DNA from: Tritonibacter mobilis
GTDB lineage: Bacteria > Pseudomonadota > Alphaproteobacteria > Rhodobacterales > Rhodobacteraceae
NCBI RefSeq assembly: GCF_001681715.1
Contig: NZ_LNWY01000016.1
Location: 1-64,000, forward strand
Direction: 5' to 3'
Length of the DNA: 64,000 nucleotides
Shown here: one piece after another, positions 22,497 through 23,261 of the stretch
Position numbering within the stretch: position 1 is the first letter of the stretch
Layout: the number at the start of each line of letters is the position of its first letter
Notes under the pieces: generated by a model
What the model was told of the DNA's origin: nothing
The model's input: only the letters and a program-made list of their open reading frames with translations
Database searches by the model: none
Translations under genes and position numbers: made by a program

Positions 22497-23129
22497 TCAC
22501 GCCTCGGTGAGGTGAGATTGCGTCAAACGCGCAACAATCAGGCGGAAGGGGATCAGCGCGATCAGCGCCAGCGACAGCTTTACCAACCAGTCGGCCACGG
22601 CCAGAGATACCCAAAGTGGTGCAACCGGGCCTGCGCCCAAAAGCGGCAGCATCTCACCGGCCCAAGAGACGTCATTTGCTGGCTCGATGAAGGTCAGCGC
22701 GCCGGAAAAGGCGATGGTGAAGAAGATCGCGGTGTCGAGCGACGAACCGATCAGCGTGGAGGCCAGCGGCGCACGCCACCATTTGCCACCGCGCAGGCTG
22801 GCAAAGATCGCCACGTCCGAAAGCTGCGCCAGCAGGAACGCCAGACCGGAGGCAATGGCGATCCGCAGGGTCACCAGCGGGCCAAACTCGCCCATGATCT
22901 GCGTGCCAATGAGCGAACAGATCACGCCGACAACAAAACCGGCCAGCACGACCTTGCGCGCGGGGCCTGCGCCATAGACGCGGTTGGTCACGTCGGTGAC
23001 GAGGAAGGCGATGGGATAGGTAAACGCGCCCCAGGTCAGCCAGTTGCCGAACAGGAATTGCACGAGGATGTTGGAGGCCACCACGACGGCAGCCATGGCG
23101 ATAACGCCAGGAAGATAGGTGCGGGTCAT
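22497..23129 (-). CDS. Queuosine precursor transporter (VUT/YhhQ family)
   Basis: The protein is a COG1738-type ECF-like carrier of about 210 residues with six hydrophobic segments. The motif WLTWGAFTYPIAFLVTDVTNRVYG near residues 30-53 is diagnostic. In E. coli the homologue YhhQ imports preQ0 and preQ1 for queuosine synthesis in tRNA. The assignment is reinforced by a preQ1-I riboswitch in its leader (23138-23168), only 9 nt ahead of the ATG. It lies downstream of the phytase-like esterase gene on the same strand but has its own 132-bp leader. Confidence 0.95.
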   Translation of the reverse strand: MTRTYLPGVIAMAAVVVASNILVQFLFGNWLTWGAFTYPIAFLVTDVTNRVYGAGPARKVVLAGFVVGVICSLIGTQIMGEFGPLVTLRIAIASGLAFLLAQLSDVAIFASLRGGKWWRAPLASTLIGSSLDTAIFFTIAFSGALTFIEPANDVSWAGEMLPLLGAGPVAPLWVSLAVADWLVKLSLALIALIPFRLIVARLTQSHLTEA

Positions 23130-23137
23130 GTATATTA

Positions 23138-23168
23138 CCGTTTTTTAGACAAGGTCGCGGAGACTTGT
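23138..23168 (-). promoter_or_regulatory. preQ1-I riboswitch
   Basis: On the minus strand the leader reads P1 ACAAG (23168-23164), a loop, P1' CTTGT (23053-offset: 23153-23149), then CTAAAAAA and CGG (23140-23138). The loop is TCT-CCG-C-GAC. CCG (23160-23158) can pair with CGG of the tail to form the P2 pseudoknot, and C at 23157 follows in the position of the preQ1-recognising cytosine. This is the H-type pseudoknot layout of class I preQ1 riboswitches, including the A-rich tail. P2' lies 9-11 nt before the ATG, so ligand binding would hide the ribosome site and reduce translation of the transporter. Confidence 0.85.
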
Positions 23169-23261
23169 GCGCCCCGGTCCGGAGCGCGAAAGATCGCTTC
23201 GTTTATGCAGATCCTAAGGCGAATGCAAGCGATTCCCCCTGTTTTTATGGGGCGATCCGCA

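Follow-up and report, generated by a model that had tools for sequence, protein, structure and literature searches.

A putative type II-like preQ1-I riboswitch in the leaders of queuosine-precursor transporter genes of Rhodobacteraceae

Introduction

In a 64-kb stretch of Tritonibacter mobilis DNA (the whole stretch analysed, hereafter the window), a vut/yhhQ-family gene is preceded by a short leader that a preliminary description, made from the sequence alone, had read as a preQ1-I riboswitch controlling a queuosine-precursor transporter. Is this leader indeed a metabolite sensor and, if so, to which of the known types does it belong, how widely is it kept, and which compound does the transporter carry? 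The riboswitch reading emerged as the best supported one, on the strength of conservation, covariation, a covariance model built from relatives (R1) and the family of the downstream gene. We consider it very probable that the vut leader is a translational preQ1-I riboswitch resembling type II, in which preQ1 binding would close the P2 helix and hide the Shine-Dalgarno (SD) sequence.

Control of yhhQ genes by preQ1 riboswitches is already known from the accessible texts of PMC5372724 and PMC10622847. A survey that covered 15 Rhodobacterales genomes and listed the Rfam PreQ1 family RF00522 assigns preQ1 riboswitches, in its accessible part, mostly to Firmicutes and to one or two proteobacterial lineages (PMC3766115), while the words riboswitch, Rhodobacter and Alphaproteobacteria are absent from the accessible text of a 2024 paper on salvage transporters (PMC11130926). 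Our literature search, which leaves most subscription papers outside its reach, returned nothing on a vut-leader element in Rhodobacteraceae among the matches listed.

Results

The vut gene and its leader. Members of the preQ1-I class stand before queuosine synthesis or salvage genes, and vut is such a gene. Its product passes both the Pfam model Vut_1 (PF02592; 100.8 bits, cut-off 27.2) and TIGR00697, 'queuosine precursor transporter' (95.6 bits, cut-off 50.95), which together place it in the YhhQ/QPTR family (COG1738); the narrower model PRK11212 stayed below its cut-off for this protein (110.4 of 252). Directly upstream of vut lies an esterase-like phytase-domain gene (PF13449; 23262-24191, minus strand), the end of which, judged by eye, apparently also precedes vut in three relatives (L224, L231 and L232), and this arrangement suggests that the gene order PF13449-vut is conserved. 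Between the upstream gene and the candidate vut promoter there is an inverted repeat (CCCCAUAAAAACAGGGG, 23235-23252, minus strand) that was not called as a terminator by the terminator scan.

The preQ1-I-like core comprises 31 bases, 23168-23138 on the minus strand, and 8 nt separate its CGG from the vut ATG, which starts at 23129 (Table 1). Read 5' to 3' from 23187 to 23127, the leader runs through P0, A-CAAG, UCUCCGCGAC, CUUG-U, CUAAAAAA, CGGU, AAUAUAC and AUG. The pseudoknot pairs are those of C23160, C23159 and G23158 with G23138, G23139 and C23140, respectively; a fourth P2 pair is absent from the window copy, where U23161 and U23137 form a mismatch, leaving three P2 pairs only. The A-run of L3 covers 23146-23141. 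The P1 helix, CCG/CGG pseudoknot and A-rich tail of the preliminary description were all recovered, each on the minus strand. A recognition cytosine is likewise present, but not at the position given for it: alignment to the Tte aptamer, as shown in the accessible text of PMC10639078, points to C23154, and C23157, which had been proposed for mutation, corresponds to Tte position 12. The ribosome site said to precede the VUT-family gene is found at the SD position, but in the window it consists only of CGGU, a weak SD, where 99 of the 110 leaders analysed below have CGGA or CGGG. Single-sequence folding of the core was no better than that of shuffles (z 0.01) and P1 was absent from nested folds of four relatives; pseudoknots lie beyond what such folds can model.

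Table 1. Features of the vut locus in the window, and the second preQ1-I-like element of the same genome.
Feature	Position	Strand	Basis
vut/yhhQ-family gene, 210 aa, queuosine-precursor transporter	22497..23129	-	Pfam PF02592 + TIGR00697
P2 3' strand CGG, at Shine-Dalgarno position	23138..23140	-	sequence; 8 nt to ATG
L3 linker CUAAAAAA, A-rich tail	23141..23148	-	AAAA directly before CGG in 110/110
P1 3' strand CUUG + U23149 (C23153-U23152-U23151-G23150-U23149)	23149..23153	-	pairs with 23164-23168
Predicted preQ1-reading base C23154, equivalent to Tte C15	23154	-	C in 110/110; Tte alignment, accessible text of PMC10639078
Loop UCUCCGCGAC	23163-23154	-	sequence
P2 5' strand CCG (anti-Shine-Dalgarno)	23158..23160	-	pairs with 23138-23140
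P1 5' strand ACAAG (A23168-C23167-A23166-A23165-G23164)	23164..23168	-	sequence
P0 extra hairpin GCGCUCCG-GAC-CGGGGCGC, abuts P1 5' side	23169..23187	-	8 bp
Predicted -10 TAAACG	23200..23205	-	TA(A) 17 nt after TTG hexamer in aligned relatives
Predicted -35 TTGCAT	23223..23228	-	TTG pattern of relatives; window's TTG 61 nt before aptamer
Tte-like preQ1-I element before queC	G000:C17:27204-27238 (L217 2205-2239)		sequence

The core is conserved and covaries across the family. Leaders were drawn from two sources: 149 family genomes, 143 of which had a vut match and from which 30 loci were kept, including the window's own, and further genomes, from which 80 of 558 confirmed vut loci were kept. 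The resulting 110 leaders overlap in part and contain 61 distinct cores and 106 distinct 40-nt upstream segments. The core was found in all 110, with no misses, by a parser whose requirements were P1 pairing, a loop that opens with U and contains CCG, a run of three or more A, and CGG. Two further features are equally universal: the loop ends in C in every leader, which the parser did not require and which supplies the invariant cytosine that the class carries just before the P1 3' strand, and a fourth A, where the parser required at least three, precedes CGG in 110 of 110, so that the A-rich L3 typical of the class reads AAAA-CGG throughout. P1 occurs as CAAG/CTTG (104 leaders), CGAG/CTTG (3) and the compensatory CATG/CATG (3). 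The pair flanking CCG/CGG is U-A in 42 leaders, C-G in 21, G-U in 9 and U-G in 1, and is unpaired in the remaining 37 (G-G in 19, G-A in 16 and U-U, as in the window, in 2). Spacing from CGG to the ATG is 7-10 nt in 104 of the 110.

Covariation was computed on an alignment (A2) of 37 distinct gap-free cores with a 10-nt loop and a 6-nt linker, representing 64 of the 110 leaders; the restriction was made because sets with linkers of different lengths were aligned wrongly at the 3' end by MAFFT. In this alignment 95.3% of cells are paired, against about 50% or less in slid versions, and the covariation score of 0.071 (0.029 in shuffles) was reached by none of 500 shuffles. One P1 pair switches from A-U to U-A, and the fourth P2 pair is U-A in 15 cores, C-G in 8 and unpaired in 14; an H-type pseudoknot, in which the P1 loop pairs with the 3' tail, is thus marked by both-side change in one pair of each helix. 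Six of the eight pairs are invariant, and neither the number of pairs changed on both sides (2; reached by 25 of 500 shuffles) nor that of further pair types (2; reached by 500 of 500) exceeds the shuffles in these 37 cores.

Most vut-bearing Rhodobacteraceae keep the element. The covariance model R1 was built from 37 distinct cores of relatives, with the window absent and with no core that has the window's 9-nt linker. Applied to the 64-kb window, it ranked the element first (24.1 bits, E 2.6e-5; next best 10.8 bits), and in the 4.7-Mb genome, where stricter filters were used, the element was the only place listed at E<=0.1. R1 recovered all 85 sources given; besides the window these were 84 of the 109 remaining leaders, and its training set had included many of them. 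Class-wide R1 matches outside the family were set aside: the best, in genome G428, falls inside a gene that is presumably dxs, and the others are weak.

A second model, R2, made from those 85 sources with the window included, matches 125 of the 149 family genomes, each of them with one match 6-51 nt before vut, and 5 of its 130 matches lie elsewhere. The element is therefore kept by most vut-bearing members of Rhodobacteraceae. The 24 genomes without an R2 match divide into 6 that lack a vut match and 18 that have one, the vut genes being weak or partial in two of these (G054 and G122) and near-full-length in 16. Inspection by eye of the leaders of these 16 revealed two diverged versions, one degenerate-looking version and 13 without the element; when the leader of G054 is added, no element is visible in 14 of 17, L223 and L228 are the diverged versions and L231 is the degenerate-looking one. 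The best three of the 17 under unfiltered R2 were these same three leaders, with top scores of only 9.7, 8.9 and 6.6 bits. The P1 helices of the diverged aptamers, which R2 scores weakly, read AGAAG/CUUCU in L228 and CGAG/UUCG in L223.

We also used a generic preQ1-I descriptor, which requires a contiguous P2 and misses both Tte and the queC leader described below. It recovers E. coli yhhQ and each of the 110 family leaders, and only L223 among the 17 leaders just mentioned. On vut leaders from other alphaproteobacterial families it gave 1 match in 40, where shuffles gave 0.8 per 40, and then 0 in 30. Because the descriptor misses Tte-like elements, R2 and R3 (the model of the queC-leader element) were run on the same 70 loci, chosen among the 146 class genomes, out of 289, that have Vut_1; the best scores there were 12.3 bits (E 0.34) for R3 and 11.2 bits (E 0.95) for R2. 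The vut version of the element thus looks confined to Rhodobacteraceae in this sample.

Rfam models miss the element and a published riboswitch alike. The preliminary description had named RF00522 as a check, and this check was negative: no Rfam family reached its gathering score anywhere in the 64-kb window, and RF00522 gave no match in short window stretches at thresholds up to E 10, in the window's genome at E 0.001 or in 20 short leaders from relatives, its gathering score of 39 bits not being reached by the vut-leader element. With RF00522 taken as the model, this outcome corresponds to one of the two refuting observations named in the preliminary description, the lack of a covariance-model match. 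The yhhQ leader of E. coli K-12, scanned as a control, had no Rfam match at E<=10 either, and for this riboswitch binding and structure are published (accessible text of PMC10622847). Since Rfam misses a published riboswitch, the negative RF00522 result has little weight; the failure reflects how far the Rfam model reaches and does not bear on what defines the preQ1-I class. RF00522 was consequently dropped as a decisive test, and the family-specific covariance model and the covariation analysis were used in its place. A match to the algC RNA (12 bits against a cut-off of 33.8; E 9.4 and 3 in two scans) was treated as chance.

The vut element resembles type II rather than type III. Division of the preQ1-I class into three types reportedly originates with McCown et al. 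in 2014. Type III was first expected from the shared target gene and was ruled out by sequence: it has UU beside P1 and an AAGG tail (accessible text of PMC11625349), where the vut leaders have UC beside the P1 5' strand (102 of 110) and CGG. In the same source, types I and II are told apart by the two bases that precede the P1 3' strand, UC in type I and AC in type II. AC or CC is found at this place, with AC in the window and in 96 of the 110 leaders and CC in 14, which agrees with type II and not with type I. A further mark of type II is the pocket ceiling of Tte, a C7-G11-C30 triple over preQ1 (section 4 of PMC11625349, as accessible), for which C7 is kept in 95 and G11 in 98 of 98 leaders; the G of CCG and the C of CGG are parser-required in this comparison, and no leader failed it. 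These 98 leaders are the ones with a 10-nt loop, in which U6 (98, parser-required), A14 (89) and C15 (98) are kept as well, and C9, which like G11 lies inside the parser-required CCG, occurs in 98 of 98. The tail reads AAAAC in 110 of 110.

With Tte, whose loop is UCGCAGUAAC in the accessible text of PMC10639078, the vut leaders share a 10-nt loop with U6, C7, C9, G11, A14 and C15, an AC that precedes the P1 3' strand, AAAAC where L3 meets P2, and an SD that lies partly in P2. They differ from it in a P1 of 4 pairs (5 in the window), in having vut as the target, in a 5' P0 that abuts P1 and in a P2 that is contiguous Watson-Crick CCG/CGG with a variable fourth pair, CGG(A/G/U) standing against the CAAGG of Tte. 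With the E. coli yhhQ riboswitch (type III; accessible text of PMC10622847) the element shares the target gene family, the SD inside P2 and the class, but in the E. coli riboswitch UU adjoins the P1 5' strand, the loop is rich in pyrimidines and the tail reads AAGG; the same text describes type III as almost exclusively gamma-proteobacterial. By its sequence the window element fits a type II-like (Tte) assignment, not type III of E. coli yhhQ, and we regard the vut element as a Rhodobacteraceae variant of the known class preQ1-I. Five of the 14 leaders with CC before the P1 3' strand (L039, L041, L051, L053 and similar ones) have a 9-nt loop, and the pocket details of this subgroup may differ.

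A second preQ1-I-like element precedes queCDEF in the same genome. Contig C17 of the window's genome carries queC-queD-queE-queF, with QueC and QueF passing Pfam models and QueD, QueE and QueF passing NCBIfam equivalog models. The leader of queC contains UCCGG-UCGCAGCCUAC-CCGGA-CAUCAAAACAAGGG, which is nearly Tte (Table 1), and RF00522 is the best-scoring family at this place, although its score stays well below the cut-off (15.5 of 39 bits, E 0.23). Nine of 14 queC or queC-like leaders of relatives have the element; the five without it belong to three weaker QueC-like matches, to L265, with a contig end nearby, and to L257, with no clear copy. Across ten sequences (the window's genome and these nine), the fifth P1 pair is A-U in 3, C-G in 2, G-C in 2, U-A in 2 and a mismatch in 1, and the covariation score of 0.267 (0.040 in shuffles) was reached by 0 of 500 shuffles; the other four pairs are invariant, and the changed-pair and pair-type counts of the ten are not above shuffles.

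R3 gave one strong match in the window's genome (60.7 bits; next 17.1) and matched 8 of 260 class genomes at E 0.01, this genome among them. Three strong matches (43-49 bits) in other alphaproteobacterial families precede QueC genes that pass TIGR00364, a weaker match (L273, 26.7 bits) lies before an ORF that by eye resembles QueC, and the last three are weak (24-25 bits). The queC element shares class, organism and pathway with the vut element, and its loop starts UCGCAG as in Tte; it differs from the vut element in its P1 (NCCGG/CCGGN), an 11-nt loop, a AAAACAAGG tail and the lack of a consistent P0, a stem of at least 5 pairs occurring at the P0 place in only 4 of 10 queC leaders. That one genome has two differently built type II-like elements, one before preQ1 synthesis and one before import genes, argues strongly for preQ1 as the ligand.

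A conserved hairpin abuts P1 near the predicted transcription start. Upstream of the vut core, a P0 stem of at least 6 pairs is present in 80 of the 106 distinct leaders, against a mean of 12.8 (maximum 20) in 50 shuffles and 9-14 P0-like stems in displaced windows. In 76 of 101 stems of at least 5 pairs there is no gap between P0 and P1. Swapping P0 arms between leaders lowered the number of stems from 78 to a mean of 23 (maximum 35), which shows that the two arms covary.

A sigma-70 consensus scan called no promoter at the window's vut leader, and we therefore relied on a conserved TTG/TA(A) pattern. Of the 110 leaders, 99 have a TTG 48-58 nt upstream of the aptamer, and alignment on it reveals C-TTG-C and TA(A) hexamers 17 nt apart. 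The other 11 leaders, the window included, have no TTG in this range; the window's candidate, TTGCAT-17-TAAACG (23228-23200), falls just outside the range of its relatives. At the commonest offsets, with initiation about 7 nt after the -10, transcription is predicted to begin at the P0 5' arm. P0 itself may stack on P1. The conserved P0 hairpin, abutting P1 near this predicted mRNA start, appears to be the new feature of the system. We tentatively propose, at rather less than even confidence, that it marks a distinct Rhodobacteraceae subtype in which a 5'-terminal P0 coaxially stacks on and props the 4-5-pair P1, making the whole leader a compact two-hairpin preQ1 sensor in a family that mostly imports preQ1.

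Discussion

Queuosine pathway genes and alternative readings. Of the enzymes that use preQ1, TGT and QueA are each present in 147 of the 149 family genomes. Of those that make it, QueF is above its cut-off in 26, and QueC exceeds a low 22-bit cut-off in 54, with full-length matches (at least 180 bits) in 12 and weaker full-length matches (112-116 bits) in 3; the remainder are partial matches under 40 bits, presumably other ATPases. Both full-length QueC and QueF are missing from 105 of the 125 element-bearing genomes (102 when the weaker three are counted as QueC), a count of absences that draft-genome gaps may inflate, and the window's genome is an exception with the full pathway. TGT is found in 124 and QueA in all of the same 125. 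Since the preQ1-using enzymes are kept while the preQ1-making ones are absent, and preQ0 is useless for queuosine without QueF, preQ1 is the likeliest cargo of vut. The preliminary description had left preQ1 and preQ0 side by side as the transported compound; this gene pattern favours the first over the second, and it makes it likely that most sampled Rhodobacteraceae depend on imported preQ1.

The same pseudoknot fold might instead be tuned mainly to preQ0 or queuine. For E. coli YhhQ a higher efficiency towards preQ0 has been reported, COG1738 is described as a heterogeneous family (accessible text of PMC5372724), and the window's genome could use preQ0 because QueF is present. Yet free preQ0 would be useless for queuosine in the 105 element-bearing genomes counted above, queuine would not need the QueA that every element-bearing genome keeps, and the type II pocket bases are kept in the vut leaders, so that we hold such tuning to be improbable. 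It is still less probable, and in our view very unlikely, that the conserved leader is bound by a protein or a small RNA and senses no metabolite. P0 could serve as a protein or RNase-protection site, but the conserved bases of the core coincide with the pocket bases of Tte as given in the accessible text, and a second, differently built preQ1-I element stands before the queCDEF genes of the same genome. A purely fortuitous resemblance in a GC-rich leader, which the shortness of the CGG/CCG pairs and the three P2 pairs of the window copy might invite, has a negligible probability, being already refuted by a core conserved in every one of the 110 leaders, by the low yield of shuffled leaders of other families under the descriptor, by the R1 E-value at the window site and by a covariation score that beats 500 of 500 shuffles.

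Proposed mechanism and significance. Under the preQ1-I riboswitch reading, the mRNA would start at or just before P0, which would stack against the short P1. When preQ1 is plentiful, it would be read by C23154 between P1 and P2, and the bound state would lock the CCG/CGG pseudoknot, burying the Shine-Dalgarno bases and lowering the output of transporter. At low preQ1 the pseudoknot would open, the ribosome could bind and the importer would be produced.

The finding predicts preQ1-sensing translational control of a queuosine-salvage transporter in most of Rhodobacteraceae, where Rfam shows nothing. Through the element, the cargo of Vut/YhhQ proteins becomes open to direct testing, and its very small natural aptamer comes with an accessory hairpin whose contribution to folding is measurable. 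For Rhodobacteraceae, a large and ecologically important family, the analysis suggests that most members depend on imported preQ1.
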